A stretch of 64,000 nt of DNA. Origin: Gilvimarinus chinensis DSM 19667. GTDB taxonomy: Bacteria > Pseudomonadota > Gammaproteobacteria > Pseudomonadales > Cellvibrionaceae. The notes under the pieces were generated by a model. It saw only the letters and a program-made list of their open reading frames with translations, made no database searches and was not told the origin of the DNA. Below are positions 11,554 through 36,074 of the stretch, one piece after another. Numbering within the stretch: position 1 is the stretch's first letter; each line of letters opens with the position of its first letter. The DNA lies in contig NZ_KB898706.1 in NCBI RefSeq assembly GCF_000377745.1, positions 697,263-761,262 of the forward strand, in the 5' to 3' direction. The translations under genes were made by a program, and so were the position numbers.

Positions 11554-11556
11554 TCC

Positions 11557-12588: not shown

Positions 12589-12612
12589 TAAATCAACTGA
12601 ATTGAAAATGTT

Positions 12613-13413
12613 ATGTCGGACACTCCTACGATTTTAAAGAACATTATCGCCCGTAAATGGGAAGAAATTGCCGAGCGAAAGACACTGGTTAGTGCCTCAG
12701 AGCTTGAAAAAAAAGCGGCATTGCAACCTGAGACCCGGGGGTTTGTACATGCATTAGAGGCAAAAGTGGCTGCGGGTGAGGCAGCGGTTATTGCTGAAAT
12801 TAAAAAGGCATCTCCCAGCAAGGGGGTTATTCGTGAAGACTTTGTTCCCGCAGAGCTTGCGCAAAGCTATGAGCGTGGTGGGGCTGCCTGTTTATCGGTG
12901 TTAACCGACAAAGATTTCTTTCAAGGATGTGATACCTACTTACAGCAAGCTCGTGCGGCAGTAACCCTGCCGGTTATACGCAAAGATTTTCTGGTGGACG
13001 AGTACCAACTGCTTGAGGCTCGTGCCATGGGGGCTGATTGTGTGTTGCTGATTGTTGCCGCATTGACGGCGCAGAGGCTCACAGAGTTGAATCAATTTGC
13101 TCTCGATTTAGGTTTAGATGTTTTGGTTGAAGTGCACGATAAAGCAGAGCTGGATATTGCTTTAACGTTACCGAATAAATTAATAGGGATTAATAATCGC
13201 AATCTGCATACCTTTGAAGTCAGTTTAGAGACCACCTTCCAGCTTCTGCCTCATATCGATAAGGAGCGGTTAGTTGTGACAGAAAGTGGTATTTTATCGC
13301 CTTCTGATGTGGCTTTAATGCGTCAGGCCGATGTCAATGCCTTCTTGGTGGGTGAGGCTTTTATGCGTCAGGCTGATCCTGGTAAAAGTTTGCAAGAGTT
13401 TTTTTCCGAGTAA
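12613..13413 (+). CDS. trpC: Indole-3-glycerol phosphate synthase
   Basis: A TIM-barrel enzyme closing the indole ring from CdRP. The 266-residue protein is a stand-alone TrpC, not fused to TrpF. Signatures are [11 protein letters not shown] (catalytic Lys), [23 protein letters not shown] and V-T-E-S-G-I. It follows trpD by 24 bases. The convergent chemoreceptor ends 39 bases downstream; I see no strong hairpin terminator between them. Confidence 0.96.
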
Positions 13414-15136: not shown

Positions 15137-15150
15137 GGACAACGTTGTCA
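15137..15150. promoter_or_regulatory. NagR-type operator 1 (chemoreceptor side)
   Basis: The core GACAACGTTGTC at 15138-15149 is a perfect palindrome with the central CG typical of LacI-family operators. Read on the minus strand it contains TTGACA (15151-15146), a consensus -35 box for the chemoreceptor gene, so a bound repressor would block polymerase. The -10 is weak (TTTACC at 17 bp spacing). Confidence 0.82.
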
Positions 15151-15345: not shown

Positions 15346-15359
15346 TGACAACGTTGTCT
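15346..15359. promoter_or_regulatory. NagR-type operator 2 (hexosaminidase)
   Basis: A second perfect GACAACGTTGTC at 15347-15358, 65 bases upstream of the hexosaminidase start. A TATTCT immediately upstream (15341-15346) could be a -10 box, which would place the operator over the transcription start; no good -35 supports this. Confidence 0.82.
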
Positions 15360-15423
15360 GTTTGCTCGGGCTTGGGGTCAGGCTTAGATTTCGTGTAAGT
15401 AAATGATAAAGAGGAAAATAACA

Positions 15424-18200: not shown

Positions 18201-18230
18201 TTGACAACGTTGTCATTTAAGCCGTAAAAC
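18201..18230 (+). promoter_or_regulatory. TBDR 1 promoter with overlapping NagR-type operator
   Basis: TTGACA at 18201-18206 and TAAAAC at 18225-18230, 18 bp apart, form a sigma70-like promoter. The operator TGACAACGTTGTCA (18202-18215, perfect palindrome) covers the -35 box and part of the spacer, consistent with repression. The TBDR 2 promoter has the same arrangement and the same TAAAAC. Confidence 0.8.
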
Positions 18231-18414
18231 AATAGCCACTCCCTGAAAAAGCCCAAGGGTTATTTGTTTACTGCATCGTGCGTTGCAGCAGTGCGCAAAA
18301 ACTAACAAGAGGCGAGGGGGACTCAAGTCGGTTGTGGTGCAAAGCAGCAATCACAGACTGTTAACACAACGGCCTGATCGACTTTCCTAAAAGCTTAGAT
18401 GTGAGGATGTGGTT

Positions 18415-21156
18415 ATGAAAATGGGTCATCGTGGTTTCCAAAAGAAAATGCTGGCATCCAGTATTGCCAGTTGTTTATTGCTGCCGGTAATGGCACAGGC
18501 TCAGGAAACCGAGCAATTATTTGAAGAAGTGGTGGTAACCGGTATTCGCGGTTCGCTTGAGTCCTCCTTGGACATGAAGCGCGATGCCAGCTCCGTGGTG
18601 GATGCTATTACCGCTGAAGATATTGGTAAATTTCCCGATAAAAACGTCGCCGAATCTTTGGCGCGCATTCCCGGTATTACCATTGATCGTGACTTTGGTG
18701 AAGGCCAGGGCGTTACCATTCGTGGCGTGGCTCCAGACCAAAACATTACTCTGCTTAACGGCCAGGCAGTGGGTACCAGTAACTGGTTTGTACTGTCTAA
18801 CCCAACTCGTAACTTCAATTACGAAATTCTTGCCTCGGAAATGATTGCTGGGGTTGAGGTGTATAAGTCGGCGCAGGCCGACATTGATGAAGGTGGCCTG
18901 GGGGGGACTGTTATTCTGCGCACCCGCAAGCCGCTTGATTTGGATGCAAACACTTTTCACGCCAGTATAGAAGGTCAGTACAGCTCAAACGGTGAGAATT
19001 TCGACCCGGCCGCGTCAGCTATGTACAGCTGGAAAAACGATGCGGACAGCTTCGGTGTGATGGTTTCGTTGTCGCAGCAAAATCGTTCAGTATTCCGTGA
19101 AGGGATGGAAGACTTTGGGTACTTCGGACCCTCAGTGGCACGTGTAGAAGGTTTGATGGAAGGCCCGACGTTGGCCGACGGTACCAACGATGATAAAGGT
19201 GCAATTCCTTGGGGGATGGGTTCGGCGTTATTTGAACAGGACCGCAAACGTACCGGTATCGATATTACGGCACAGTTTGCCCCTTCTGATAACCTTGATA
19301 TGTCATTGCATTACCTGTCATCGGAAATGGAAGCGGATAACGTTAACTCTAATCTGATTGGTATTCCATTTCGCGGCGTTGCTTATTTAGGCACTGACAC
19401 CGACATGGGTAATACCAACGAGCAGGGCATTACCGACGAGCTGTACGTTCGTGGTGGTGAAAACCACGAGGCGGCGAGCTGGTCTCGCTTTCTGGCGTAC
19501 GACAATATTTACCGCGATGGCTCAGAAATGAGTACCGAGGTGATCGACTTTGAAGGGACCTATTACAATGGCCCGCACCAGTTGCATTGGCAAGTGGGGC
19601 AAACAACCGGTGAAGGCACCAACCGCGATTTCTTTACCGAATTTTGGGGTGCCCCTACCGACGAGCGTACCGGCTTTGATTTTTATAACCCCGGCGGCCA
19701 GACTCCGTACATAGATTTTACCAGCTACAACGAATGGTTGAGCAACCCTACCGACGAACTTTGGCTGGGCGGCGCTTTTGATCAAATTAACACCGCTGAA
19801 GATCAAGAAAACTATGCGCAGTTGGATTACGACTTAGAAGTTGATCTTGGTGCGGTGAACATGTTGAGCTTCGGTGCAAAAGTTCGCGACCGCTCCTTCT
19901 CGCAAATGCGTTTTCAGACCAATCTCGCCAACTTCAACCCTACCGGTGAAGGTAGTCTGGGGCCAGCCGGCGACTTCTGGACCGGTGACATGATTACCGT
20001 TGATCATTCTGCAACTGCAGGCCGCGGTAGCCAAACCTACTTCATGCCCGACCGTGAGTTGATGTACAACGCCTTCTATGCAGTTGACCCTTGTGCAACA
20101 GATACCACAGTGTTGTGCCGCGTGGATGATCAAATTCAAAACTTGGCGTCTTTCGAAGTTGAAGAAGATATTACCGCGCTTTACGCCATGGCAACTTTTG
20201 AAAGTGATGGTATTCGCGGTAACGTTGGTTTGCGTTACGTTGAAACAGATCAGTTGGCTTACGGCTACAATGCAGACGGTTCGGCTCAGGATGCCTACGA
20301 GTCTGATTACGCCGAGTTTTTGCCCAGCTTGAACGTAGCCTACGATTTGACCGAAGAAGTCGTGCTGCGTTTTGCCGCAGGCCGTGCCCTGACCCGTCCA
20401 GCACCTTTCCAGTTGGCACCTTCGTTTAACCTTACGCCAGAGACGGGCCGAGGTACCGCGGGTAACCCGAATCTAAAACCTCTGGTGGCGGATCAGTACG
20501 AAATGGGCATCGAGTGGTATTTTGCTGATGCGTCTAACTTGAGTGCGACGGCGTTTAAAAAAGACATTACCAACTTTGTCTTTAACCAAACCGTAAGCGC
20601 TGAAATTGATGGTGTGCAGTATAACCAGTTACAGCGTCCGGAAAACGGTGGTGCGTCGAATATTGACGGTGTTGAGGTGCAATTTACCCATACCTTTGAT
20701 TCTGGTTTTGGTTTGTTGGCTAACTACACCTACACCGATGTCAGCCCTGCAGAAGTTCAAAATGCTGTGCCCGTTCTCGACGATGAAGGAAACATCACTG
20801 GTGCAACGCTTGAAACCAGCACAGTTCGCTTCCCCAATGCCTCGAAAGACACTTACAACCTGGGTGCGTTCTACGAGAATGATGTTATCAGTGCGCGGAT
20901 GAACTACAGCTATCGTTCAGAATACTTTATGGCACAAACTGAAATTGGTAACCAGATGCGCGATGAGCAAGTACAGCTGGACGCTCAAATCTCATACTAT
21001 GTTACCGATAATTTGAGCCTGAAGCTTGAGGCGCTCAATCTCACCGATGAAGTCATAGAGAACTACTACATCAGAGCAACCGATGGTGCTCGTTTAGGTG
21101 GAACCTCGTTCTCTAATGGTCAGCGCATTTTTGTTGGTGCGAGCTACAAGTTCTAA
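18415..21156 (+). CDS. TonB-dependent outer-membrane receptor 1 (Caulobacter type)
   Basis: A 913-residue TBDR that imports a ligand across the outer membrane using TonB energy. The ATG at 18415 with GAGGA 7 bases upstream is preferred to the GTG at 18409. The signal peptide ends A-Q-A-Q. There is no STN domain. A TonB-box-like E-E-V-V-V-T-G-I-R-G precedes the plug (~45-165: D-I-G-K-F-P-D-K-N-V-A-E-S-L) and the barrel ends in a C-terminal Phe (Y-K-F). This is the TIGR01782-like class common in carbohydrate loci of Alteromonadales, Cellvibrionales and Caulobacter. Control by the NagR-type operator suggests chitin oligosaccharides or GlcNAc as ligand; the sequence alone cannot tell it from TBDR 2. 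Confidence 0.93.
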   Translation: MKMGHRGFQKKMLASSIASCLLLPVMAQAQETEQLFEEVVVTGIRGSLESSLDMKRDASSVVDAITAEDIGKFPDKNVAESLARIPGITIDRDFGEGQGVTIRGVAPDQNITLLNGQAVGTSNWFVLSNPTRNFNYEILASEMIAGVEVYKSAQADIDEGGLGGTVILRTRKPLDLDANTFHASIEGQYSSNGENFDPAASAMYSWKNDADSFGVMVSLSQQNRSVFREGMEDFGYFGPSVARVEGLMEGPTLADGTNDDKGAIPWGMGSALFEQDRKRTGIDITAQFAPSDNLDMSLHYLSSEMEADNVNSNLIGIPFRGVAYLGTDTDMGNTNEQGITDELYVRGGENHEAASWSRFLAYDNIYRDGSEMSTEVIDFEGTYYNGPHQLHWQVGQTTGEGTNRDFFTEFWGAPTDERTGFDFYNPGGQTPYIDFTSYNEWLSNPTDELWLGGAFDQINTAEDQENYAQLDYDLEVDLGAVNMLSFGAKVRDRSFSQMRFQTNLANFNPTGEGSLGPAGDFWTGDMITVDHSATAGRGSQTYFMPDRELMYNAFYAVDPCATDTTVLCRVDDQIQNLASFEVEEDITALYAMATFESDGIRGNVGLRYVETDQLAYGYNADGSAQDAYESDYAEFLPSLNVAYDLTEEVVLRFAAGRALTRPAPFQLAPSFNLTPETGRGTAGNPNLKPLVADQYEMGIEWYFADASNLSATAFKKDITNFVFNQTVSAEIDGVQYNQLQRPENGGASNIDGVEVQFTHTFDSGFGLLANYTYTDVSPAEVQNAVPVLDDEGNITGATLETSTVRFPNASKDTYNLGAFYENDVISARMNYSYRSEYFMAQTEIGNQMRDEQVQLDAQISYYVTDNLSLKLEALNLTDEVIENYYIRATDGARLGGTSFSNGQRIFVGASYKF

Positions 21157-21179: not shown

Positions 21180-21205
21180 GGCTGGCCCTCGGGCCAGCCC
21201 TTTTT
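21180..21205 (+). terminator. Hairpin terminator between TBDR 1 and halogenase homologue 1
   Basis: A perfect 9-base GC-rich stem (21180-21188 with 21191-21199) with a 2-base loop and five T after one C. It lies only 15 bases before the next start. Read-through past it would give much less halogenase than receptor mRNA; no separate promoter is visible in the gap. Confidence 0.82.
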
Positions 21206-21219
21206 CTCGGTGAATTGAT

Positions 21220-22734
21220 ATGATTAACAACTCTCTCAATGGTCTTAACCTGATCATTGTTGGTGGCGGTACTGCTGGCTGGATGGCTGCAAATTTAATT
21301 AAACATCATTGCCCCGATGCTGAAGTTACTTTGATAGAGTCAGACAAAGTTGCCCCAATTGGAGTGGGTGAGGGCTCAACGCCTTATTTAAAACAGTTTT
21401 TTAACACACTGGGGGTTGAAGACTCTGTCTGGATGCCCGAGTGTGATGCGACCTATAAAGCTGGAATCCGTTTTCCAGGATGGTCTGAAGTTTCAGGCTT
21501 TGAAAGTTATTTTCACCCGTTTTTTTCTGAATTAGATATTCCTACCGCCGAACCCTTCTTTGAATTTAGTAAAAAAGCCTTGCGAGGGGTTGGCCAGCCA
21601 GTACACCCAGACGATTATTTTGTGAATCAGCCCTTGGCTGCGTTGGGGCTGGCACCGGTTGCGAAAGATCCGTCGTTGAATATCGACTACGGATATCATT
21701 TTGATGCAGTAAAGCTCGGCCAGTTTTTAAAACGTAATGCACAAAATCTCGGCGTTAAATGTGTCATTGATCATGTGGATAAGGTTTTTCTGAACGATAA
21801 GGACGGAGCTATAAAGGCTTTGCAAACGCGCACCAGTGGTTTGATGCGGGCAAATATGTTTGTCGATTGCACAGGCTTTAGTGGGCTTTTAAGTCAGCAA
21901 ACGTATGCTTTAACGTTTAAAAGCTACGCGGATTACCTCTTTAATGATCGCGCCGTTACCGTTATGACAAAAGCGGATTCAACTCTTCAGGCTCAGACAA
22001 CATCCACCGCCCTGAAAAATGGCTGGGCCTGGAAAATTCCGTTACAAAGCCGCACAGGTAACGGCTATGTTTATAGCTCGAAGTACTGTTCAAACGATCA
22101 GGCCGAGCACGAATTGTTGAGTTTTTTAGGGGCTGAAAAACAAGGGGCCAATGTTCGTCATTTGTCGATGAAGGTGGGCCGTTTGAGCGAGCATTGGCAC
22201 AAAAACTGTCTTAGTGTCGGTTTGTCTCAGGGGTTTATTGAACCGCTGGAAGCTACCGCGCTTATGCTGGTGCAATACACCGTTGATACCTTTATACGCT
22301 CTTTTGATTCAGCAAAACCTGTACTGGAAAATAACCAGCAGCAGGTGAATGACAAGGTTAATTGCTTAACCGACGGTGTGTTGGATTATATTTGTGCGCA
22401 CTATCGCATGAACAGTCGCAGCGATACGGCGTATTGGCGCGATTGCCGTGATGCACCTGTGCCACCAACACTGGCGATATTAATTGAGGCATGGCGCAAA
22501 GGCGAAGACTTTGATGCGGTTTTGCAGCATCAGCATAATGAATTAGCGTATTTGCGCCCCTCCTGGTACGTGTTGTTGGCCGGCATGGGGTGTTTTAAGT
22601 CAAGCAACTGCCATCGTCAGTTCGATCAGATTGCAGCTGCAAAATGTAAGGCGAAAGCACAACACGCCTTCCCTGATCAGCGAACGTTATTGAAGGCGTA
22701 CTCCGAACGTGTAAAAGCAAAGGCCAAATCGTGA
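21220..22734 (+). CDS. Flavin-dependent tryptophan halogenase-family protein 1
   Basis: A 504-residue FAD-dependent monooxygenase-fold protein of the tryptophan halogenase (PrnA/BrvH) family. The FAD loop is V-G-G-G-T-A-G-W-M; the halogenase fingerprint W-x-W-x-I-P is present as G-W-A-W-K-I-P. The Lys that carries hypohalous acid or haloamine in PrnA (K79) is K80 here (A-T-Y-K-A-G-I), and the catalytic Glu (E346 in PrnA) is E344, followed by Ala instead of Ser. Its stop overlaps the GTG start of homologue 2 by 4 bases (GTGA). It sits directly behind TBDR 1 in a sugar regulon, so free tryptophan is an unlikely substrate. Family assignment is sure; activity and substrate are unknown. Confidence 0.9.
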   Translation: MINNSLNGLNLIIVGGGTAGWMAANLIKHHCPDAEVTLIESDKVAPIGVGEGSTPYLKQFFNTLGVEDSVWMPECDATYKAGIRFPGWSEVSGFESYFHPFFSELDIPTAEPFFEFSKKALRGVGQPVHPDDYFVNQPLAALGLAPVAKDPSLNIDYGYHFDAVKLGQFLKRNAQNLGVKCVIDHVDKVFLNDKDGAIKALQTRTSGLMRANMFVDCTGFSGLLSQQTYALTFKSYADYLFNDRAVTVMTKADSTLQAQTTSTALKNGWAWKIPLQSRTGNGYVYSSKYCSNDQAEHELLSFLGAEKQGANVRHLSMKVGRLSEHWHKNCLSVGLSQGFIEPLEATALMLVQYTVDTFIRSFDSAKPVLENNQQQVNDKVNCLTDGVLDYICAHYRMNSRSDTAYWRDCRDAPVPPTLAILIEAWRKGEDFDAVLQHQHNELAYLRPSWYVLLAGMGCFKSSNCHRQFDQIAAAKCKAKAQHAFPDQRTLLKAYSERVKAKAKS

Positions 22735-24269
22735 ACCCTGCTCGTATCGTTATTGTTGGTGGCGGTTCTGCGGGATGGATGTGCGCCTGTTTACTGGCGC
22801 ACCGCTGGAAAGCTAAAAATGTCGCTGTGACGGTGGTGGAATCCCAGGTCATCGGTACCGTGGGGGTTGGCGAGGGCTCTACCCCTTTTCTGCGTGATTT
22901 TTTTGCGGAACTTGGTATTGCCGAAAACGTATGGATGCCCGCCTGTAACGCCACCTATAAGTGTGGAATTCGTTTTGATGGCTGGTCTGAAAGGGCAGGC
23001 TTTAACAGCTACTTTCACCCATTTAATACGGAGTTAGACCACTCTGGCGCCGTACAGTTTTTTAAAGATTGCTACGCACGGCGTATGGGCTATGACCTGT
23101 CCCCTGTGCCGGATGATTATTTTGCCTCCAGCGCCATTGCAAAAGAGGGGCGAACACCGTTTGCGCGAATTTCTGACGGCTCTGAAAAGCCACTCACAGA
23201 TTACGGCTATCATTTTGATTCACAGTTGCTGGGTGAATTTCTTAAAAAGCACGCACAAGCATTGGGGGTTGCTCATGTTGATGACACAGTCGTTGACGTC
23301 GAACGAGGGGATACGGGCGATATCATTACCTTGCAGCTGGAGCGCGAAGGGCGAGTAGGCGGCGACCTTTTTATCGACTGTTCAGGGTTTAAGTCGGTGC
23401 TCATGCGCGAAGCTTTACGGGTGCCCTTTATCAGTTGTCGTGATCGCTTAGTCAATAATGCGGCCATAGCGCTGCCCTCCAGTCATACTCCGAGTAACGA
23501 GGTCAATTGCGCTTCTGACAAGCACAGCGATAACCGATGGCGCTATCCGACCGAAACTTTGGCGGAGGCTAAGCCCAATGGATGGATGTGGCGTATTCCT
23601 CTCACTGAGCGTTGGGGGAACGGCTATGTGTTTAACAGCGACGATACGTCGTTTGATGAAATAGAGCGCCAACTGCGCACTCAATTGGGCAGTGATTCAG
23701 ACGCTTTTTCTGCACGCAGGTTGAGTTGGCAACCTGGGCGGCTTCAGCGTCACTGGGAAAAAAACTGCGTTGCCATTGGTTTGTCACAGGGTTTTTTAGA
23801 GCCTTTAGAGGCGCCGATGTTGCGAATTATTCAATTCAGTTGTGAGCGGTTTATTGAGCTCTATGAACAAGAGGGTGCCACTGCCACTGCCACGGCGCGC
23901 GACGAGTTCAACCACTCGGTCAATCGACTTATTGACGGTAATATCGATTATTTACAGGCACATTATTTGGTCAGTGCCCGCACCGATACCAACTACTGGC
24001 GAGTAGCTCGTACGAATGACCATGTCTCCCCAGTACTGCGATGCTTGTTGCTCGCCTGGAGGGGGCAGGATAGCTTTGATGCGGCGTTAAACGAGGTAAA
24101 GGATGCTTTGGTTTATCACAAAACGTCCTGGTACTGTCTGTTGGCCGGTAAAGGTGAGTTTGGCAAGGCTTTTCGGCATACCCCAGCAATGGCATATCAT
24201 CCCCAGTGTCGATTCAAGGAGCATAACGCGCGTTTGGCTCGCCAGTGCACACTGGCGATAGCGGGCTGA
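22731..24269 (+). CDS. Flavin-dependent tryptophan halogenase-family protein 2
   Basis: A 512-residue paralogue of protein 1, starting at GTG and coupled to it. It has V-G-G-G-S-A-G-W-M for FAD, G-V-G-E-G-S-T-P, the active-site Lys K77 (A-T-Y-K-C-G-I), G-W-M-W-R-I-P, and E360 followed by A361-P. Proteins 1 and 2 share the E-A variant and the G-E-G-S-T-P loop, unlike proteins 3 and 4 (E-S and G-E-A-T-I-P), so two subfamilies are present. A 25-residue insertion before the W-x-W-x-I-P motif explains its extra length. The promoter is shared with TBDR 1. The gene ends 58 bases before the first of two operators serving TBDR 2. Confidence 0.9.
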   Translation: MNPARIVIVGGGSAGWMCACLLAHRWKAKNVAVTVVESQVIGTVGVGEGSTPFLRDFFAELGIAENVWMPACNATYKCGIRFDGWSERAGFNSYFHPFNTELDHSGAVQFFKDCYARRMGYDLSPVPDDYFASSAIAKEGRTPFARISDGSEKPLTDYGYHFDSQLLGEFLKKHAQALGVAHVDDTVVDVERGDTGDIITLQLEREGRVGGDLFIDCSGFKSVLMREALRVPFISCRDRLVNNAAIALPSSHTPSNEVNCASDKHSDNRWRYPTETLAEAKPNGWMWRIPLTERWGNGYVFNSDDTSFDEIERQLRTQLGSDSDAFSARRLSWQPGRLQRHWEKNCVAIGLSQGFLEPLEAPMLRIIQFSCERFIELYEQEGATATATARDEFNHSVNRLIDGNIDYLQAHYLVSARTDTNYWRVARTNDHVSPVLRCLLLAWRGQDSFDAALNEVKDALVYHKTSWYCLLAGKGEFGKAFRHTPAMAYHPQCRFKEHNARLARQCTLAIAG

Positions 24270-24325
24270 GCTTTCGAGTCTGCGTGATACAGAAACGGCT
24301 ATTCATCTGTCCGGGGGTTCATGGT

Positions 24326-24339
24326 GAACAACGTTGTCA
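24326..24339. promoter_or_regulatory. NagR-type operator, imperfect upstream copy (TBDR 2)
   Basis: AACAACGTTGTC at 24327-24338 matches the operator core with one change (A for G at the first base). Its distance of 162 bp from the promoter copy suits an auxiliary operator for looping; alternatively it is a relic. Confidence 0.68.
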
Positions 24340-24486
24340 TTGGCGTGTTTTTTTTCATATTTTGGTGAGATAAAGAGGTTTGTTTATACGGTAAAAATTC
24401 TGTAACTCTCTGTTATTTAAAGGTTAATAAGTAACCTGCAGTCTGGGTGTCTCTGTTGCTAACGTAAGCGGCTTCAAAAAACTTTC

Positions 24487-24516
24487 TTGACAACGTTGTC
24501 GGGGCGGGTGTAAAAC
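24487..24516 (+). promoter_or_regulatory. TBDR 2 promoter with overlapping NagR-type operator
   Basis: TTGACA at 24487-24492 and TAAAAC at 24511-24516 with 18 bp spacing. GACAACGTTGTC (24489-24500, perfect palindrome) overlaps the -35 box exactly as at TBDR 1. Confidence 0.8.
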
Positions 24517-24721
24517 TACATTCCGTAACATGCGAGCTTTCTAATGATCAAAATTAAGGGCTAGTAAATCTATATATCGCTTGCGTTGTGACTACGTGCA
24601 AGTGCTATATCCATAAGAAAAGTCGATTGAGTTCGTCCGGCGGACTCGGGGGTGGGGTAACCGCTGCTGGAGCCGTCATTAAGTTTGAAAATAACATTAA
24701 AACGATAGTGAGGAGACAGTT

Positions 24722-27700
24722 ATGGAATCTAACAAAGGCACTTTCCGGAGGAAGGTACTGGCTTCCAGTATTTCATCCTGCCTGTTGGCATCCGCTTATA
24801 TGGCTCAGGCGCAAGAATCTGAGCCAATGCTTGAAGAAGTTGTGGTGACCGGTGTTTACGCATCGCAACAAAATGCTATTAACACTAAGCGCGACGCCAC
24901 TTCGGTCGTTGACGCCATCTCTGCCGAAGATATCGGTAAGCTCCCCGATGTAACCATTTCCGACTCGCTGCAGCGTATTCCTGGTATTCAGGTAGAGCGT
25001 ACCGCTGGTGAGGGTGGCCCGGTACAAATCCGTGGTTTAAGCAATGTGGGCACCATGCTCAATGGTGAAGTATTTTTGAGCGCCACCACCATTGATGCGT
25101 CCAGTGCTGACTTTGGTGATCTGCCGTCACAACTGTTCTCTGGCGCAGAGGTGTACAAATCACCCCGTGCCGACGTGAGCGCGCAGGGTATTTCGGGTGT
25201 TATTGACCTGCAAACCCGTCGTCCGTTCGACCTGGATGAAGGCTGGACCTTTTCTGCCGGTGCAGAAGTAGACCACGGCTCTATCAGTGACGAATACGAC
25301 CCCACTGTTAATGGCTTAATTGCCTATAATGCGGAAGATTGGGGCATTCTGGTCAGCGCGGTAACCACCGAGAAGAATCTGGCAACCGATTTTAACGGTT
25401 ACTTTGATACCTCTGAAAATGGCGGCATTGGTGCGACCAACAGCAACCATACTTGGAGCACTCCTGCGGTAAACCCAAATACCTATCACTTGGTTCCACA
25501 AGGTTTTGCGGCTTTCCATAAAGAAGAAGAGCGTCAACGCGATGGGGCCAATGTGTCTTTCCAGGCGCAATTGACCGATGGTGTTGAGCTGGTAGCTGAT
25601 TATTTCTACAGTGAGCAAGACCGCTTTAACCGTCGTGCGGGCTTCTCTCACAACAACCGCTGGCAGACGTTTACCGGCTACGCGTTTGAGACCGAAGCTG
25701 GATTGCTGGGTAATGAATTTACCTTTATTCCTAATGAAGGAACCCCCGAGGAAGGTGCGCCTCAGTCGTGGAATACCATCAATGCTTTCTACGCCAACCC
25801 TTACCGCTTACAGTCTTTCTCTCAGGTTAACCGCAACACCGAAAAATCTGAAAATGCCAGTGTTGAGTTAAACTTTGACAATGGCGGTCCGTTGACCGGT
25901 CAAGTACGAGTTACTCGTGCGACAGCTTCTGCCAGCATGCGTCATGGTTATGTGGAAGGCGATATGCTGAGCATCGACCAAGGCACGCTGGTAACTGGCC
26001 CTGGTGGTCTGGTACCTGGTAAATACTGTGATGGGACGAATCATATCCCTGGCTCAAGCATGGGTGATGACGGCGGGTGCTACATTCAGTATGCGCCGGG
26101 CGGCATTGAAGATGACGAGTTCCTGATTAAGTACGACGCTTCTGGTGAGCATCCGGTATTCAGTGGTTTCGATCAGATTGTTGACGGTGGCCAAGGTCAA
26201 ATGACCGTTGCTGAGTATATGGCCAGCATCGATTCCTACCATGTAGGCGCCATGTCATCGGAAAACAACACTGATGATGAAGGTGAAATTAACACCTTCA
26301 GCACTCGCTGGAATTACGAGTTTGATGACACTGCTTTCATTACCAGTGTGGATTTCGGTGTACGTCAAAGTGAACGCTCAGTAGATCACGACGTGTTCTC
26401 TTACTTTGGTACATTTCCCGATACTGGCTGTATGGCTCAGTGGAAAGCGGTAGACCAGTTTGCCAACACGCCTGATTGTGATATGAGCTTGCAGCAGGGT
26501 GAAATGGTTGATGGTGAGTTTGTTCCGTACACTTTATTGATGCCTACTCGCATTGATGAGCACAATGACGTTGTGTGGATTGATGACTTTGGCCCGGTAG
26601 AGGGTATCCCCGGTGTTTGGACCGTTGATCCTAAAGCGTTGGATGACACCCTGGCTTACCAAACCCAAGTGTTCGGTGAACAAACTAAATTTGTCCAGCC
26701 AGGACAATCCTATAAAGTTGGGCTGGATGAGTTCAGCTACTTTGGTAACGTCAACTTTGCCGTTGGTGATCTGAGCGGTAACTTGGGTGTTAAGGTTGTT
26801 GAAACTGACCTTACCGTAGTACAAAACGTTACCGGTGATGCCGTGCCTCATTCTGGCGTAAGCTATGACGCGGGCGATGTGGTGACCGAGCGCGGTTACA
26901 CCGATGTGCTGCCCAGCTTGAACCTGTCATACCATTTAGCTGACGATTTAATTCTGCGTGCTTCTTACGGTAAAACCATGCAGCCTTTGGACCTTCTCAC
27001 CTGGGGTGGTGCTAAATCCGTTGGCCGTGTCTTTAACGAAGACTGTAACTGCATGCGTGTTACCGGCGGTAACTTGAACGGTAACCCGACGCTTGATCCT
27101 ACCCGCGCTGAAAACATGGATTTGGCAATCGAATGGTATCTGGGTAGCGCCTCTATGGTGGGTGCCTCTTTGTTCGATATTGAAATCGATAGTTTTGTGC
27201 AAACGGGTACGACCTACCTAGACGAGCCTGACGCTGACGGTATCAACCGTGGTCCTTGGCCATTCCAAGGTCCGACTCAGGGAACTGGCGGTAGCGTGAC
27301 CGGTGTAGAATTGCAGGCTAAAGTGGCCTTTAGCGATATCACCGATGGCTTTATGTCTAATTTCGGTTTTGATGTGAACTACACCTACTCTGACAGCTCA
27401 CAAGAGGCCGAGGGCGTGAACGGAGAGCTGCCATTCATCAACAACTCTGAAGATACCTACAACGTTGTGGGTTGGTTTGAGAATGATGTATTGGCGGCAC
27501 GTTTGGCTTATAACTTCCGTTCGCCTCGTTTGATTGCTCAAGGTAATGATGCCACAGGCTCTCAGGCTTTGTATCAAGACGATTACGGTCAGTTAGACAT
27601 GAACGTGACTTGGTATGTGACTGAAAATATCGATTTGTATGTCAATGGCTCTAACATTATGGAAGAGTACCAGCAGACCTACGTTGAGTTCTCAGATCAA

Positions 27701-27760
27701 AAAGCCTTCCAGAACATTTACGAAGCTCGCTGGGCACTGGGTGCTCGCGTAAACTTCTAA
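24722..27760 (+). CDS. TonB-dependent outer-membrane receptor 2 (Caulobacter type)
   Basis: A 1012-residue TBDR, about 100 residues longer than TBDR 1. The ATG is preceded by GTGAGGAG. The signal peptide ends M-A-Q-A-Q; the TonB-box-like E-E-V-V-V-T-G-V-Y follows, then the plug (D-I-G-K-L-P-D-V-T-I-S-D-S-L). The barrel closes with R-V-N-F. Extracellular loops contain Cys pairs (about residues 438 and 450, and 557 and 571) that may form disulfides. It shares signal peptide and plug motifs with TBDR 1 but the barrels diverge, so the ligands probably differ in size or linkage. It is the first gene of a unit followed by halogenase homologue 3. Confidence 0.93.
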   Translation: MESNKGTFRRKVLASSISSCLLASAYMAQAQESEPMLEEVVVTGVYASQQNAINTKRDATSVVDAISAEDIGKLPDVTISDSLQRIPGIQVERTAGEGGPVQIRGLSNVGTMLNGEVFLSATTIDASSADFGDLPSQLFSGAEVYKSPRADVSAQGISGVIDLQTRRPFDLDEGWTFSAGAEVDHGSISDEYDPTVNGLIAYNAEDWGILVSAVTTEKNLATDFNGYFDTSENGGIGATNSNHTWSTPAVNPNTYHLVPQGFAAFHKEEERQRDGANVSFQAQLTDGVELVADYFYSEQDRFNRRAGFSHNNRWQTFTGYAFETEAGLLGNEFTFIPNEGTPEEGAPQSWNTINAFYANPYRLQSFSQVNRNTEKSENASVELNFDNGGPLTGQVRVTRATASASMRHGYVEGDMLSIDQGTLVTGPGGLVPGKYCDGTNHIPGSSMGDDGGCYIQYAPGGIEDDEFLIKYDASGEHPVFSGFDQIVDGGQGQMTVAEYMASIDSYHVGAMSSENNTDDEGEINTFSTRWNYEFDDTAFITSVDFGVRQSERSVDHDVFSYFGTFPDTGCMAQWKAVDQFANTPDCDMSLQQGEMVDGEFVPYTLLMPTRIDEHNDVVWIDDFGPVEGIPGVWTVDPKALDDTLAYQTQVFGEQTKFVQPGQSYKVGLDEFSYFGNVNFAVGDLSGNLGVKVVETDLTVVQNVTGDAVPHSGVSYDAGDVVTERGYTDVLPSLNLSYHLADDLILRASYGKTMQPLDLLTWGGAKSVGRVFNEDCNCMRVTGGNLNGNPTLDPTRAENMDLAIEWYLGSASMVGASLFDIEIDSFVQTGTTYLDEPDADGINRGPWPFQGPTQGTGGSVTGVELQAKVAFSDITDGFMSNFGFDVNYTYSDSSQEAEGVNGELPFINNSEDTYNVVGWFENDVLAARLAYNFRSPRLIAQGNDATGSQALYQDDYGQLDMNVTWYVTENIDLYVNGSNIMEEYQQTYVEFSDQKAFQNIYEARWALGARVNF

Positions 27761-27804
27761 GTTCTGAAGCAATTCGTGCGTCGCTTGGCGGCGCATATTT
27801 TTCT

Positions 27805-27846
27805 AACCGCCACCTAAACTTCAGGGTTTTGTGTGGCGGTTTTTTT
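27805..27846 (+). terminator. Rho-independent terminator after TBDR 2
   Basis: An 8-base GC-rich stem (27806-27813 with 27833-27840) with a 19-base loop, followed by six or more T. It separates TBDR 2 from halogenase homologue 3, the same layout as at TBDR 1. Confidence 0.82.
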
Positions 27847-27882
27847 GTATAAGCTGAAATAAATAATGTCAGGGGAAAAGTT

Positions 27883-29391
27883 GTGACTCAAACTTCGGTG
27901 AAACGTATTGTAATTGTTGGCGGCGGTACAGCCGGTTGGATGACGGCAGCTATGCTGGCCAAGCACTTTCGTAAAACCGATATTGCACTGACGTTAATCG
28001 ACTCATCTGAAATTGGCACCGTCGGGGTGGGGGAGGCAACCATTCCCACCTTGCGGCGCTTTTACGCCGAATTGGGAATGAATGACCTGGATGTTATGCG
28101 TGCCTGCCAGGCAACGTGTAAATTGGGCATTGAATTCCGTGACTGGTATCAACAGGGTAGTCAATTTATTCATCCTTTTGGTCTTTATGGGCAAAAGGCC
28201 AATGGTATCGATTTTCACCACTACTGGATGTACCTGCGTGAGCAGGGTGAAGCGGGTAGTCTCGACGAGTACTCCTTGGGGGTACAATTAGCCAAACAGC
28301 ATAAATTTATTCAGCCTTCACCAAAACCGCCTTCTGAGTTGTCTGTTTTTGATTGGGCGCTGCACTTCGATGCCGCTTTGTTTGCCCGCTTAATGCGCGG
28401 CTACGCCTTGGAAAATGGCGTTATTCATGTTGATCAAAAAATTGAGCGAGTAGACGTTGCTGGTGATCAGAGCGTCAGCGCGTTGAAGTTACAGAATGGT
28501 GCGATTGTTACAGCGGATTTGTTTGTAGATTGCTCGGGCTTCTCAGGTTTGTTGATTGAGCAGGCACAACACACCGGCTACGAGGATTGGAGCCAGTGGC
28601 TTAAGTGCGACCGCGCCGTGGCGGTGCAAAGTGTTCGCGAGGGTGAGGCGGCGCCTTATACTGTCAGCCAGGCGCACCGAGCGGGATGGCAGTGGAAGAT
28701 ACCCCTGCAGCACCGTCAGGGTAATGGCCACGTGTATTGCAGTAAGCATGTCAGTGACGATGAAGCCGCCGCTACCTTAACGAATCATATTGATGGCGAA
28801 CTGATGACCGATTTGCGCGCGTTTCAGTTCGTGGCCGGGCGGCGTAAGAAAGCCTGGAATAAAAACGTGGTGGCTGTTGGTTTGGCCGCCGGTTTTCTGG
28901 AACCGTTAGAGTCCACCAGTATTGCCTTGGTAGAAACCGCTATCGAAAAGATTCGTCGAGTCTTTCGTGGTCCTTTTTACACTGAAAAGCAGGTGCAGGA
29001 ATTCAATGATTTAACCGCTCAAGAATACGAGCGAGTGCGAGATTTTATTATTTTGCATTACAAGCTGAATCAGCGGGGTGATAGTGATTTTTGGCGAGAG
29101 TGCCAGATGATGGATATTCCCGACACTCTGAGCCGCAAGCTAGATGCGTTTAAAGAGAGGGGTGATTTGATTCGTTACCCTATTGAAATTTTCGGTCCGC
29201 CCAGTTGGCTGGCAATATACAGTGGTTTTCATTGTCTGCCTGAACGCTTTGATGAGCGCGTTAAAAAAATGGACCCGGCTTATTTGCAAAAAGCCCTGGG
29301 TGATATGCGGCGTTCGGTGGCCAATGCCGTGGCCAGCGTACCTGGCCACGATGAGTTTATTACTGAAAATTGCGCCGCAGCCGCACCCTAG
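27883..29391 (+). CDS. Flavin-dependent tryptophan halogenase-family protein 3
   Basis: A 502-residue member starting at GTG. It shows V-G-G-G-T-A-G-W-M, G-V-G-E-A-T-I-P, active-site Lys K80 (A-T-C-K-L-G-I), G-W-Q-W-K-I-P and the E-S pair E343-S344, as in characterised tryptophan halogenases. It is closer to protein 4 than to 1 or 2: both share the H-H-Y segment near residue 112, L-Q-H-R after the W-x-W motif and G-F-L-E-P-L-E-S-T-S-I. Behind TBDR 2 and its terminator, with no separate operator seen. The enzyme would need reduced FAD from a partner reductase. Substrate unknown. Confidence 0.9.
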   Translation: MTQTSVKRIVIVGGGTAGWMTAAMLAKHFRKTDIALTLIDSSEIGTVGVGEATIPTLRRFYAELGMNDLDVMRACQATCKLGIEFRDWYQQGSQFIHPFGLYGQKANGIDFHHYWMYLREQGEAGSLDEYSLGVQLAKQHKFIQPSPKPPSELSVFDWALHFDAALFARLMRGYALENGVIHVDQKIERVDVAGDQSVSALKLQNGAIVTADLFVDCSGFSGLLIEQAQHTGYEDWSQWLKCDRAVAVQSVREGEAAPYTVSQAHRAGWQWKIPLQHRQGNGHVYCSKHVSDDEAAATLTNHIDGELMTDLRAFQFVAGRRKKAWNKNVVAVGLAAGFLEPLESTSIALVETAIEKIRRVFRGPFYTEKQVQEFNDLTAQEYERVRDFIILHYKLNQRGDSDFWRECQMMDIPDTLSRKLDAFKERGDLIRYPIEIFGPPSWLAIYSGFHCLPERFDERVKKMDPAYLQKALGDMRRSVANAVASVPGHDEFITENCAAAAP

Positions 29392-29457
29392 CCTCTGTTA
29401 TCTACGGGCACTCTTCTAGCCTGTAGATACGGCGATAGTAAGAGCGCGGTTGGCGGC

Positions 29458-30966
29458 TTACTCCGGCGCCGCACAGTGGCGTTGAATAAAATCCGCGTGG
29501 CTTAACGGTTGGCTCGCAGCTTGGTGCACAGCGTTGCGCATTTTTTCCAGCTGCTCTGCCAGCTGACTGCTGGTTAGGGTGTTCGCGCGCCGATCATAGT
29601 CTTGTGGGAATTTATGGAAGCCTAAGTACATGGTAACCCAGCTGTCGCGCTCAAAGGCTTCGGGTTCCAGCATCACCACCTTACCCCGGCTGTTAAACAC
29701 CTCCATTTTATGCGCAAGTGTGTCGGGAATGTTCATGGTCTGGCAGTGCTGCCAGAACGGGGTGTCGCTGCGATTACTGGCTTTGTAATGCAGGATAATA
29801 AAATCGCGAATGCGCTCAAACTCGTGTGCGTGCTGGCGATTCACTTCATTTTGGTCTGCCGTGTTGATGCCGTTGTGAGGAAAGAACTCTAACAGTTTAC
29901 TGATGCCAGTCTGAATCAGGGAAATACTGGTTGACTCTAATGGCTCTAAAAAGCCAGACGCCAGGCCGAGCGCAAAACAGTTTTTGTGCCAGATTTTTTT
30001 CCGCTTGCCGGTCACAAACTGAAACCGGCGCGGTTCGGTTAGCACTGTGCTATCAAGCCCATCTAGCAGTGTGGATTCGGCCTTGTTCTGATCACAAAAC
30101 TCACTGGCGTACACATAGCCGTTACCCGTGCGGTGTTGCAACGGGATGCGCCACTGCCAGCCGGCGGCTTTAGCCGTGGTGCGAGTGTAAGGGGTCAGCT
30201 CGGCGGCTTTATCGCTTTGCACGGCAATGGCACTGTCGCAGGGCAGCCAGCTGCGCCAGTCGTCATAGCCGGTGTGTAAGGCTTTTTCAATCAGTAAACC
30301 GCGAAACCCCGAGCAATCGACAAAGAAATCAGCGTTTACTGTGCGTCCATCGCCCAGTGTTACGCAAGTGATGTTTCCGCTATCCGGGTGGTGTTGGGTG
30401 GTGGCGATTTTTCCTTCTACCCTGTTTACACCACGAGCTTCGGCATAGCGACGTAAAAACCTTGCGTAGCGACCAGCATCAAAATGATAAGCGTAGCCGA
30501 AATCGGCTAAGGGCGATGGCGGGTTAGGGTGCGGCTGGGCAAACCGGTTTTGCCAGGCAAGCTGAGTGGCAAAGGAGTATTGTGCTGGGTCTGCCGGTAG
30601 GTCTGCTATTTTTGCGCGAGCTAAATAGTGATGAAAAGCGACGCCGTTTAAATCAATACCATAATCGGCGAAAGGATGAAAAAAACGGCTGCCTTTTTCT
30701 CGCCAATCTCGAAATTCAATACCGAGCTTAAAAGTGGCCTGAGTGGCTTTAATAAAATCAATTTCATCAATGCCGAGTGAATCATTGTAACTGCGAATGC
30801 TGGGAATCGTCGCTTCACCCACGCCAACAGTGCCAATGTCTTCGGATTCAATAAGCGTGATTTTTATATTAAAGTCTGCCAGTTGTCGGCTGATGGAGGC
30901 GGCGGCCATCCAGCCTGCTGTGCCGCCGCCGACAATGGTAAGGTGATTGATTTGACTGTGTGACAC
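29458..30966 (-). CDS. Flavin-dependent tryptophan halogenase-family protein 4
   Basis: A 502-residue paralogue of protein 3, transcribed towards it; the two genes end 66 bases apart. It starts at GTG (30966) with a weak ribosome site. FAD loop V-G-G-G-T-A-G-W-M, K80 in A-T-F-K-L-G-I, G-W-Q-W-R-I-P and E344-S345 are all present. The inverted order of 3 and 4 suggests duplication with inversion. No NagR-type operator was found upstream of 30966, so its control may differ from the other three. The GST and rdgC genes follow on the same strand but upstream. Confidence 0.9.
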   Translation of the reverse strand: MSHSQINHLTIVGGGTAGWMAAASISRQLADFNIKITLIESEDIGTVGVGEATIPSIRSYNDSLGIDEIDFIKATQATFKLGIEFRDWREKGSRFFHPFADYGIDLNGVAFHHYLARAKIADLPADPAQYSFATQLAWQNRFAQPHPNPPSPLADFGYAYHFDAGRYARFLRRYAEARGVNRVEGKIATTQHHPDSGNITCVTLGDGRTVNADFFVDCSGFRGLLIEKALHTGYDDWRSWLPCDSAIAVQSDKAAELTPYTRTTAKAAGWQWRIPLQHRTGNGYVYASEFCDQNKAESTLLDGLDSTVLTEPRRFQFVTGKRKKIWHKNCFALGLASGFLEPLESTSISLIQTGISKLLEFFPHNGINTADQNEVNRQHAHEFERIRDFIILHYKASNRSDTPFWQHCQTMNIPDTLAHKMEVFNSRGKVVMLEPEAFERDSWVTMYLGFHKFPQDYDRRANTLTSSQLAEQLEKMRNAVHQAASQPLSHADFIQRHCAAPE

Positions 30967-33682: not shown

Positions 33683-33733
33683 TTGACAACGTTGTCTTAT
33701 GGGCCTAAAGTTAGAGTCGTTGACAACGTTGTC
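33683..33733 (+). promoter_or_regulatory. nagK promoter with two NagR-type operators
   Basis: TTGACA (33683-33688), 17 bp spacer, TAAAGT (33706-33711). One perfect GACAACGTTGTC (33685-33696) covers the -35 box and a second (33722-33733) lies just after the expected start. The centres are 37 bp apart, so the two sites bracket the promoter. A further half-site TTGACAACTT follows near 33746-33755. Confidence 0.83.
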
Positions 33734-33932: not shown

Positions 33933-34030
33933 CAGAGTCGTATGAACTTGATAATCAAATAAATGTTCTGTGGCGTCTGCGGCAGAATGGGTTCCCTCCG
34001 GAATCCTATAGACAATAAATGAGGGTGAGC

Positions 34031-34942
34031 ATGGGCAATCAGCCTGGAATCGGTGAGACTTTGTACTTAGGTATTGATGGGGGGGGTACTAAGTGTCGCG
34101 CTGTGCTGGTTGACGAAAATAACCAGGTGCTAGGGGTGGGTAATGGCGGCCCGTCAAATCCATATCATGGTGTGGCCCGCGCGCTTGAGTCTATCGTCAA
34201 TGCCACCGATAACGCACTGCGTAGCGCTGGTTTAACGCCAGAGGATAAGTCGCGCGTAGTGGCAGGGCTAGGTTTGGCGGGAGTTAATTTACCCAGCTTG
34301 TTCAAAATTGTTGACCAATGGGAACACCCTTACAAAGCTCAGTATCTGACTACCGATTTACATATTGCTTGTATTGCTGCGCATGAACAAGACAATGGCG
34401 CTGTGATTGTATCCGGTACGGGTTCCTGCGGTTTTGCGCATGTTGATGGTCAATCCCTCACCTTAGGTGCACATGGTTTTCCCTGTGGTGACGTGGGCAG
34501 CGGTGCCTGGATTGGCCTTGAATGTATTAAAGCTGTATTACTGGACTCGGACGGTTTAGGGCCAGCAACAGCGTTGACTGAATTAGTTTCTGAGCAGTTG
34601 CAGGCTCGTGGAATCATGATTGTAGAGCGTTTAAATGGCGCGAAGTCCAGTGATTATGCCAAGCTGGCGCCTATCGTGTTTGCCGCTGCGGAAGAGGGTG
34701 ATGAAGTGGCGCTTTCTATTATTCGTGGTGGCGCTGATTATCTGACCGATGTGGCTCGTAAGTTGTGGGCGCTGAACCCTCCGCGTATGTCTATGCTTGG
34801 TGGTGTGTCTACCCGCATAGTCGACTGGATGGACGCTGACATCGCTTCGCGCATGTCTGATCCGTTAAACCAGCCAGAATTTGGTGCTGTCCACTTTGCT
34901 CGTAGTAGTTACGCAAGTGAAGTAGTCGCGGTAGCGCAATAA
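34031..34942 (+). CDS. nagK: N-acetylglucosamine kinase, BadF/BadG family
   Basis: Phosphorylates GlcNAc to GlcNAc-6-phosphate with ATP in the cytoplasm. I start at the ATG at 34031, which has GAGGG 5 bases upstream; the ATG 12 bases earlier is the alternative. The 303-residue protein has the ASKHA phosphate-1 loop G-I-D-G-G-G-T-K and phosphate-2 motif I-V-S-G-T-G-S, plus L-G-G-V-S near the C-terminus (adenosine motif). BadF/BcrA-type kinases replace NagK in many nag loci. It is followed after 55 bases by nagX and preceded by NagR-type operators, which fits the role well. Confidence 0.9.
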   Translation: MGNQPGIGETLYLGIDGGGTKCRAVLVDENNQVLGVGNGGPSNPYHGVARALESIVNATDNALRSAGLTPEDKSRVVAGLGLAGVNLPSLFKIVDQWEHPYKAQYLTTDLHIACIAAHEQDNGAVIVSGTGSCGFAHVDGQSLTLGAHGFPCGDVGSGAWIGLECIKAVLLDSDGLGPATALTELVSEQLQARGIMIVERLNGAKSSDYAKLAPIVFAAAEEGDEVALSIIRGGADYLTDVARKLWALNPPRMSMLGGVSTRIVDWMDADIASRMSDPLNQPEFGAVHFARSSYASEVVAVAQ

Positions 34943-34997: not shown

Positions 34998-36074
34998 ATG
35001 GCAAAACAGCGTTACATTGCGCTTGATGCAATGCGTGGGCTGACTTTGGCCCTGATGATTTTGGTAAATACCCCCGGCTCTTGGTCTTACGTGTATGCAC
35101 CCCTGCTGCACGCTGATTGGCATGGAGCCACTTTTACCGATTATATCTTTCCGTTTTTCCTGTTCATTGTCGGCTCGGCAATGTTTTTCTCAAACCGTTC
35201 GCAACAGGCTGTTGCAAAATCAGAACGAACGCGAAAGATTTTTAAGCGTACGGCCTTAATGTTTTTGATTGGCCTGCTGTTAAATGCTTATCCGTTTACG
35301 GGCGCGCTGGATGAGTTGCGCATCCTCGGGGTGCTGCAGCGTATTGCCCTGGCTTATTGTGCTGCTGCGTTTATTGTCTGGCTTCCCGGTATGTGGCGGT
35401 TGGTTATTGGCACTGTTTTGCTCGCTGGGTATTGGGGAGTGCTAAACGTTTCCGCAGATCCTTACTCCTTAGCAGATAGTGTGGTTCGTCACATCGATCT
35501 TGCTGTGCTGGGTGCGGAACATCTGTGGCAGGGTAAAGGTATTGCTTTTGATCCTGAGGGATTGTTGAGCACGTTACCTGCGATTGTGAATGTCTTAATT
35601 GGCTTTGAAGCTGCACGCATTTTAATTGGCAGTGAAAATAAACAGCGTGCGCAATTGACGCTATTGGGGTTGGGGGGGCTGAGCGTTCTGGCTGCTTTAG
35701 CTTGGCATCCGCTGTTCCCTGTTAATAAATCTTTATGGACTAGTTCGTTTGTGTTGCTTACTTCCGGTGCGGGCATGCTTACGCTGCTGGCTTTAGTGTG
35801 GTTGGAAAAGTTGCCAGCGGCGGTGCCGGTGTTAAAAAGTTTTACTCTGCTGGGGAAAAACCCTTTATTTATTTACGTGTTGAGCATTCTTTGGGTAAAA
35901 ACCTACTATCTGTTCAATATTGATGGTGTATCGCTGTATCAGCATATTTTTGAGTTGTTTACTGATTTTTTAAACCCTTACAACGCATCGCTTATGTTTG
36001 CTTTGCTGCATGTTGCCATTCTTTGGGTTATCGCGTGGTGGTTGGATAGGCGTAATATTGTTATTTCTATTTAA
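34998..36074 (+). CDS. nagX: NagX-type inner-membrane acyltransferase-like protein
   Basis: A 358-residue integral membrane protein with about ten TM segments. The N-terminal R-Y-I-A-L-D-A-M-R-G-L-T-L-A-L-M-I-L-V-N is the DUF5009/DUF1624-like heparan-alpha-glucosaminide acetyltransferase signature, with F-P-F-F-L-F-I-V-G-S-A following. NagX is a recurrent nag-regulon member in Alteromonadales and Xanthomonadales; a role in GlcNAc or chitooligosaccharide transport or transacetylation has been proposed but the reaction is not settled. It has an AATAAGAGG ribosome site and shares the nagK operon. Confidence 0.9.
   Translation: MAKQRYIALDAMRGLTLALMILVNTPGSWSYVYAPLLHADWHGATFTDYIFPFFLFIVGSAMFFSNRSQQAVAKSERTRKIFKRTALMFLIGLLLNAYPFTGALDELRILGVLQRIALAYCAAAFIVWLPGMWRLVIGTVLLAGYWGVLNVSADPYSLADSVVRHIDLAVLGAEHLWQGKGIAFDPEGLLSTLPAIVNVLIGFEAARILIGSENKQRAQLTLLGLGGLSVLAALAWHPLFPVNKSLWTSSFVLLTSGAGMLTLLALVWLEKLPAAVPVLKSFTLLGKNPLFIYVLSILWVKTYYLFNIDGVSLYQHIFELFTDFLNPYNASLMFALLHVAILWVIAWWLDRRNIVISI

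Follow-up and report, generated by a model that had tools for sequence, protein, structure and literature searches.

Four halogenase homologues and two TonB-dependent receptors in a chitin locus

We analyzed a 64,000-nucleotide stretch of the Gilvimarinus chinensis DSM 19667 genome (hereafter the window), which encodes four flavin-dependent halogenase (FDH) homologues, H1–H4, together with two TonB-dependent receptors (TBDRs), T1 and T2. The genome-wide position of such FDHs, described below, indicates that they very probably serve receptor-dependent uptake. The genes and putative operators of the locus are as follows:

18409..21156, plus strand: T1, TBDR (TIGR01782, 637 bits), ending 63 bases before H1
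21220..22734, plus strand: H1, FDH homologue of 504 amino acids (PF04820, 390 bits; motifs)
22731..24269, plus strand: H2, FDH homologue of 512 amino acids (PF04820, 368 bits), with a 4-base overlap with H1
24722..27760, plus strand: T2, TBDR (TIGR01782, 518 bits), ending 122 bases before H3
27883..29391, plus strand: H3, BrvH-like FDH of 502 amino acids (PF04820, 582 bits; HPFGL as in BrvH)
29458..30966, minus strand: H4, BrvH-like FDH of 502 amino acids (PF04820, 614 bits), convergent with H3
15403..17985, plus strand: GH20 beta-N-acetylhexosaminidase with chitobiase domains (Pfam)
34019..34942, plus strand: BadF/NagK-type kinase, probable N-acetylglucosamine (GlcNAc) kinase (PF01869)
34998..36074, plus strand: NagX-like membrane protein (HGSNAT_cat, PF07786)
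36126..37145, minus strand: LacI-family regulator, probable NagR (PF00356 and Peripla_BP_3)
15138..15149: NagR-like operator core GACAACGTTGTC, before GH20 (exact match)
15347..15358: NagR-like operator core, before GH20 (exact GACAACGTTGTC)
18203..18214: NagR-like operator core, before T1-H1-H2 (exact GACAACGTTGTC)
24489..24500: NagR-like operator core, before T2-H3 (exact GACAACGTTGTC)
33685..33696: NagR-like operator core, before the NagK-like kinase (exact GACAACGTTGTC)
33722..33733: NagR-like operator core, before the NagK-like kinase (exact GACAACGTTGTC)

With its GH20 enzyme, both receptors, the kinase, the NagX-like protein and the LacI-family regulator, this is a GlcNAc/chitin locus. 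Exact copies of GACAACGTTGTC occurred six times in the window and not once in 100 shuffles; the genome holds 15, one of them at C5:145878, upstream of a receptor–Cupin_8–FDH–FDH operon. By analogy with the NagR of Shewanella, a LacI-family repressor of the GlcNAc pathway (PMC2996990; papers are cited here and below for the portions of their text available to us), GACAACGTTGTC is probably the operator of a NagR-type repressor. The original prediction had placed four halogenase homologues clustered with TBDRs in a sugar-uptake regulon, and this was borne out by the six cores at GH20, T1, T2 and the NagK-like gene and by the position of T1 and T2 before and between H1–H3. No GACAACGTTGTC site was found ahead of H4, which lies on the minus strand after rdgC and a GST gene.

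FDH genes accompany receptors across glycan loci

The genome (4.07 Mb, 18 contigs) contains 20 intact PF04820 genes, comprising 19 complete FDHs, in which Lys80, Trp270, Trp272 and Glu344 (H4 numbering) are all present, and one dead FDH, in which at least one of these residues is lost or cut off. A broken relic and a weak match that is probably unrelated were also found; the relic (C2:623316-624046) lies between an intact FDH gene and the following receptor gene. Eighteen of the 20 genes are located within 3 kb of a TIGR01782 TBDR, against a random mean of 1.4, and a 19th is 3.1 kb from the nearest one. Conversely, 13 of the 29 full TIGR01782 receptors of the genome have an FDH within 3 kb.

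Judged by their neighbours, the FDH loci are directed at chitin (GH20), beta-glucan and mannan (GH16-type, GH26), agar/galactose (agarase CBM), xylan (GH43) and starch (GH13, GH15), and at the substrates of GH95, of GH127 with a sulfatase-like gene, and of GH3; the galactokinase-like gene of the agar/galactose locus and the sulfatases were judged from N-terminal sequence. FDH-receptor loci thus serve at least eight unlike glycans, and the constant partner is the receptor. With 18 of 20 FDHs near TBDRs in such diverse loci, a reading centred on chitin is too narrow. We rejected a chitin-specific role, as sister FDHs stand behind receptors in many glycan loci of the same genome. The earlier interpretation stands in part: these are halogenase-family enzymes with the expected motifs and are tied to TBDRs, but the suggested chitin-linked aromatic is disfavoured by sister genes in starch, xylan, agar/galactose, beta-glucan, GH95, GH127/sulfatase and GH3 loci. 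Modification of a receptor ligand, another of the three roles suggested, may still apply.

The expansion is shared by relatives, with 16 to 23 PF04820 matches per genome in seven members of the same genus and 22 in another genus of the family. In a class-wide sample of 143 genomes, including this one, a strong FDH match was present in all four genomes with a strong TIGR01782 receptor and in 2 of the 139 others. The adjacency of FDHs and receptors spans Alpha- and Gammaproteobacteria.

H1–H4 retain the halogenase core, with a divergent halide site in H2

All four window proteins are encoded by intact open reading frames whose PF04820 match spans nearly the whole model (cut-off, 21 bits). Each carries the flavin adenine dinucleotide (FAD) glycine motif, the catalytic Lys (K80, K77, K80 and K80), the Glu (E344, E360, E343 and E344) and W-x-W-x-I-P, at exactly the places originally given. 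The accompanying statement that none is degenerate holds for reading frames and motifs but calls for caution in H2, which has E-A-P-M at the halide site. The corresponding motif is E-S-T-S in H3 and H4 and E-A-T-A in H1; H2 has Pro at the place of Thr, whereas its best PDB relative, SttH, has E-S-T-G. In PrnA and RebH, the backbone of this Thr has a role in the halide site. Among 139 complete FDHs from 80 loci of other genomes (the best-scoring 80 of at least 586 confirmed matches), none had Pro at this position and 125 had E-S-T-S. The Pro of H2 is retained in the sole orthologue seen (L044:9530 of G004, a relative). Comparison of this genome (G000) with G004 showed that H3 (nonsynonymous divergence, dN, 0.072; synonymous divergence, dS, 1.19) and H4 (dN 0.076, dS 1.13) are under purifying selection; for H1 (dN 0.153) and H2 (dN 0.197), synonymous sites were saturated.

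H3 and H4 share 48% identity, and H1, H2 and C5_152007 are 42–45% identical among themselves and 30–31% identical to H3 and H4; by sequence, H1 and H2 are a branch apart from H3/H4. The best match of H4 among solved structures is BrvH (6frl, 508 bits), followed by 9LUQ and Xcc4156, and its motif is HPFA; H3 is assigned to the BrvH-like group (group C) by the HPFGL motif that it shares with BrvH. H1 and H2 fall outside this group, with AbeH and SttH as best PDB matches (298 and 283 bits). The cut-offs of the NCBIfam models for QhpG, LodB and GoxB (240 or 400 bits) were missed by the window proteins, the best score being 39.8 bits. QhpG acts on protein. A Trp-binding motif of the YYHG..YS type was not found in H1–H4 by eye on alignments (H3 from sequence alone): H4 has EAFERDSW and H1 LAYLRPSW at the PyrH/AbeH motif place, H2 has LVYHKTSW near the SttH motif (not column-exact), and H3 has EIFGPPSW (unaligned to PDB). 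Group C FDHs are described as lacking the Trp motif (PMC8269204).

A dead FDH paralogue stands between complete FDHs

Elsewhere in this genome, behind a TBDR, a dead FDH paralogue of intact length (L009:6832-8331, plus strand; C1:186831-188330) is flanked by a complete FDH on either side. This arrangement, FDH–dead FDH–FDH, was found in 20 of the 80 other-genome loci (21 middle genes), and these triads contain 4-base overlaps between genes; only this count is a frequency, because the triads of the Gilvimarinus family were picked for the gap left by FDH pairs. Of the dead FDHs called in the 80 loci, 30 in all, 24 have a length of at least 440 amino acids; Lys is kept in 6 of these, Glu in 2 and Trp272 in 2. 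Two triad loci have a shorter middle gene (L071, 368 amino acids; L084, 344 amino acids). The dead gene is not always in the middle: it is last in L079 and at the end of the available sequence in L100. The comparison of dead FDHs used 25 of 28 proteins, with three very divergent ones left out. The dead FDH gene is under purifying selection, and structure prediction gave an intact fold for its product. In the L116 genome (Caulobacter vibrioides; G161 C18:92053-97834), a stop apparently interrupts the gene in the middle of an FDH array.

Tree distances were compared across 23 operons for four components (T, the receptor; a, the first FDH; D, the dead FDH; b, the third FDH), leaving out L068 (a near-copy of L060), middle genes of at most 440 amino acids and triads without a TBDR longer than 850 amino acids. 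L074 and L050, as well as L131 and L054, are the same regions, and one per pair was used in tree and distance tests. Rank correlations were 0.84 for a-D and 0.73 for T-b, and 0.31–0.47 for the other pairs. The partial correlation of T-b given a and D was 0.69 (within-class permutation, P = 0.001) and that of a-D given b and T was 0.81; partials were −0.01 for T-a given b and D, 0.24 for T-D given a and b, and −0.18 for b-D given a and T. The T-b link is not due to distance on the DNA, since the usual neighbour of T is a. In the 13 gammaproteobacterial or other operons, T-b reached 0.90, compared with 0.66 for T-a and 0.51 for T-D; between this group and the alphaproteobacterial operons, T-b was 0.70 and T-a 0.36. 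The a-D correlation stayed at 0.74–0.84 in every split. These results suggest that the first and the dead FDH are likely to form a complex; the T-b correlation hints, less strongly, that it is the b-type FDH that serves the receptor. For 27 loci lacking a dead gene, the receptor and its FDH correlated at 0.69 (without control).

Hairpins separate receptor and FDH genes

Terminator-like hairpins followed by T tracts are present in both receptor-to-FDH gaps of the window:

21180..21205, plus strand: hairpin and T tract, T1-H1 gap, the tract ending 14 bases before the H1 start
27776..27802, plus strand: hairpin and T tract, T2-H3 gap

The position of the first leaves no room for a whole promoter behind the hairpin, and H1 therefore relies on read-through or on a promoter within T1. 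Such elements were found in all nine receptor-to-FDH gaps of 40–400 bases in this genome and in 11 of its 43 other co-directional gaps; in the other-genome loci, they were found in 22 of 31 receptor-to-FDH gaps versus 21 of 144 others. We infer that the hairpin acts as an attenuator, by which the enzyme would be made in sub-receptor amounts. The data also allow that it may be a plain receptor terminator with some read-through.

Receptor and enzymes change jointly among relatives

Window-like regions were obtained from seven relatives, of which three (G003, G005 and G008) end before T1 and are uninformative on the T1 block. G004 retains all six genes (T1 94%, H1 78%, H2 72%, T2 75%, H3 87% and H4 89% identity). 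In G006, the T1-H1-H2 block is missing, with GH20, T2, H3 and H4 still there. In G001 and G002, T1 has only 31–32% identity, and behind it lie an FDH from a different subgroup and a DUF6445 protein; an H1-like gene is present in G001 (57%) and absent in G002, and T2-H3-H4 are kept at 62–73% in both. The DUF6445 proteins beside the swapped T1 module (L041:7900-8604 and L042:9195-9914) show an HFD...H pattern that, by eye, resembles 2-oxoglutarate (2OG)-Fe(II) oxygenases.

Other oxygenase-like genes also stand beside receptors. Three of the four genomic positions with Cupin_8 proteins fall within receptor-FDH operons, and the one compared has the protein hydroxylases FIH and JMJD5 as its closest solved relatives by sequence. 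SapC lies in receptor-FDH operons in two of three cases, with no credible relative among solved structures, and a PhyH protein is encoded in the xylan operon. Twenty-two loci had no TBDR by our receptor hidden Markov model (HMM); a Pfam scan covered five of the 22, and several of the rest are short contigs. All five FDH neighbours tested in loci of this kind matched the 2OG-Fe(II) oxygenase domain PF13759 and TPR, some below cut-off (PF13759 genes near FDHs in L066, L109, L112, L122 and L124), and all five receptor candidates tested were TBDRs by Pfam, with shorter TBDRs in L066, L112, L122 and L097.

Two further features of the window lie outside these modules:

10825-13413: trpGDC cluster (GATase, Glycos_transf_3 and IGPS; Pfam)
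39013-43116, minus strand: 1367-amino-acid protein with five DUF7933 stretches and a signal-like start

The former contradicts the original remark that no tryptophan metabolism is nearby, though it forms a cluster of its own at a distance of 7.8 kb from H1.

Proposed role and alternatives

We propose that H1–H4 may belong to a large family of presumably cytoplasmic, O2-dependent flavoenzymes that partner TBDRs. The enzyme set, encoded directly behind the receptor, would be expressed through a hairpin that passes only part of the transcripts, giving catalytic enzyme amounts alongside an abundant receptor. The FDH would condition receptor function whichever glycan is taken up; its most likely target would be the co-encoded receptor, in which hypohalite or oxygen chemistry would alter an aromatic side chain ahead of export. 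In some operons, a second FDH and a dead FDH-fold protein would be added, probably as a complex in which the dead copy gives binding, not chemistry. In the window, T1-H1-H2 and T2-H3 would be two modules under a NagR-like repressor, with H4 an extra copy on the other strand. The proposal in full, namely receptor-partner oxidases with the co-encoded receptor as target and the dead copy as partner subunit, is tentative, a possibility that we would not yet call probable. In its broadest form, the proposal would be that co-encoded halogenases, partly in a complex with a conserved pseudo-halogenase, post-translationally halogenate or hydroxylate TBDRs in Alpha- and Gammaproteobacteria before these are exported. 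Such a system, which would be an unrecognised kind of protein modification for the outer membrane, appears somewhat unlikely.

Several observations weigh against this proposal, and its main weakness is that no receptor residue marks a modification site. A diagnostic aromatic residue was absent, both among the 29 TBDRs of this genome and then in 58 FDH-linked versus 37 unlinked TBDRs (one TBDR sharing an operon with a linked one was left out). The best columns of 18,732 tests, uncorrected for kinship, had Trp/Tyr/Phe in 29 of 58 linked versus 0 of 37 unlinked receptors and Tyr in 47 of 58 versus 13 of 37, and aromatic composition did not differ between the two sets (Trp, 1.43 versus 1.32 per cent; P = 0.37). 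No single receptor part co-varied with the FDH: the signal extended over the whole receptor, the first 84 residues being highest at 0.55. The link between the receptor and the third FDH did not hold in the 10 alphaproteobacterial operons, where the order of correlations was reversed (T-b 0.54, T-a 0.65, T-D 0.82). Moreover, 16 of the 29 TBDRs have no FDH within 3 kb, the FDH at C8:72119 adjoins a GH20 gene 52 kb from any TIGR01782 TBDR, and the two class-sample genomes mentioned above have an FDH without a strong TIGR01782 TBDR. The hairpins may only end the receptor transcript, because gaps between TBDRs and other genes often hold them too (8 of 15 in this genome). Finally, the receptor tree showed no clustering of FDH-linked TBDRs (8 changes versus a shuffled mean of 9.8; 80 of 500 shuffles as low). 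This last point would fit a genomic coincidence, in which FDH duplicates spread with TBDR loci without shared function; given the adjacency across Alpha- and Gammaproteobacteria, purifying selection, the 4-base overlaps within triads and the joint change of T1 and its FDHs, we consider this extremely improbable.

The FDHs might instead process cargo, halogenating or hydroxylating an aromatic group brought in along with the glycan (ferulate from xylan, catechols of cuticle chitin, algal phenols) and thereby detoxifying it or freeing the sugar. Their location in glycan loci and the acceptance of indole by BrvH (PMC5945002) agree with such a role, and the models for the dioxygenase CciO, which centre on receptor cargo or an inhibitor and not on receptor modification (PMC12004947), speak for it and against our proposal. 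However, the same family is present in starch, beta-glucan, agar/galactose and other loci, which lack typical aromatic groups, and about 20 paralogues would be required in one genome, which makes cargo processing unlikely. A non-halogenating role, as flavin monooxygenases, as redox sensors or in regulating receptor synthesis, with the in vitro halogenation of relatives as a side activity, would accommodate the lost halide-site Thr of H2, the conserved dead paralogue and the weak similarity of H4 to the monooxygenase QhpG (E = 2.5e-10, 39.8 bits; cut-off 240). The E-S-T-S site in 125 of 139 complete FDHs argues against it, as does the retention of Lys, Glu and both Trp, though the latter follows from the definition of complete; we give this role a low probability. 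The use of indole derivatives by BrvH and three Xanthomonas enzymes (PMC7336383 for Xanthomonas) and the trpGDC genes 7.8 kb from H1 could point to secondary metabolism, signalling or competition, with FDHs making a halogenated indole or phenol or releasing hypohalite against rivals. We give this little credence, as trpGDC aside no Pfam-scanned neighbour in the window hints at such a pathway and the tie between FDHs and receptors is tight.

Published work leaves open what BrvH-type halogenases act on in nature (PMC5945002, PMC7336383); the tie to receptors rather than to one glycan, and the dead halogenase kept between two live ones in many loci, narrow this question to a few tests. If our proposal is true, bacteria dependent on a large number of TBDRs would have a new control layer over the uptake of nutrients.

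Comparison with known systems

A full-text literature search, with partial coverage mostly without subscription papers, found FDH-TBDR linkage in no title or abstract opening. We could not confirm the original claim that genes of the BrvH type are known near TBDRs, the word TonB being absent from the available text of PMC5945002, PMC7336383 (the Xcc4156 paper) and PMC8269204; nor was halogenase found in that of the sugar-regulon and TBDR-locus papers PMC5507952, PMC2996990 and PMC1790865. By contrast, the earlier statement that the natural substrate of BrvH-kind enzymes is not known agrees with the literature, both for BrvH, for which indole is a poor substrate (PMC5945002), and for Xcc4156 and its sister enzymes (PMC7336383), the three Xanthomonas enzymes acting on indole derivatives with bromide only. 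BrvH (Brevundimonas sp. BAL3; 6FRL) and Xcc4156 (6Y1W) are non-tryptophan FDHs; H3 and H4 agree with BrvH in family, Lys, Glu, W-x-W-x-I-P and E-S-T-S. Receptor linkage and a dead partner, both features of the present loci, are unmentioned in the available accounts of these enzymes (PMC5945002, PMC7336383).

H1–H4 share family, FAD fold and catalytic Lys and Glu with PrnA, RebH, PyrH, SttH and AbeH, but differ from them in having no YYHG-type motif, in the loss of the halide-site Thr in H2 and in their setting in receptor operons. The lanthipeptide tryptophan halogenase MibH (5UAO) is biosynthetic and is not known to be receptor-linked, and its similarity to the window FDHs is low (H2, 125 bits). 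As a peptide-acting FDH, it is a precedent for a polypeptide substrate (PMC8269204).

A precedent for a receptor that needs a cytoplasmic oxygenase is CciT-CciO of Caulobacter, in which CciT function strictly needs the cytoplasmic dioxygenase CciO by a mechanism that is open (PMC12004947). PMC12914433 contained, in its available text, no mention of dioxygenase, hydroxylase, oxygenase, PiuC or CciT. Like the window modules, CciT-CciO and Fiu/PiuA with YbiX/PiuC combine a TBDR with a co-encoded O2-dependent enzyme, which in those systems is obligatory and cytoplasmic (PMC12004947). CciO is a 2OG/Fe(II) dioxygenase and its receptor carries iron cargo, whereas H1–H4 are PF04820 flavoproteins of glycan loci whose relatives occur in multi-gene sets with a dead paralogue. 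By analogy, H1–H4 may work like CciO without being CciO-type dioxygenases.

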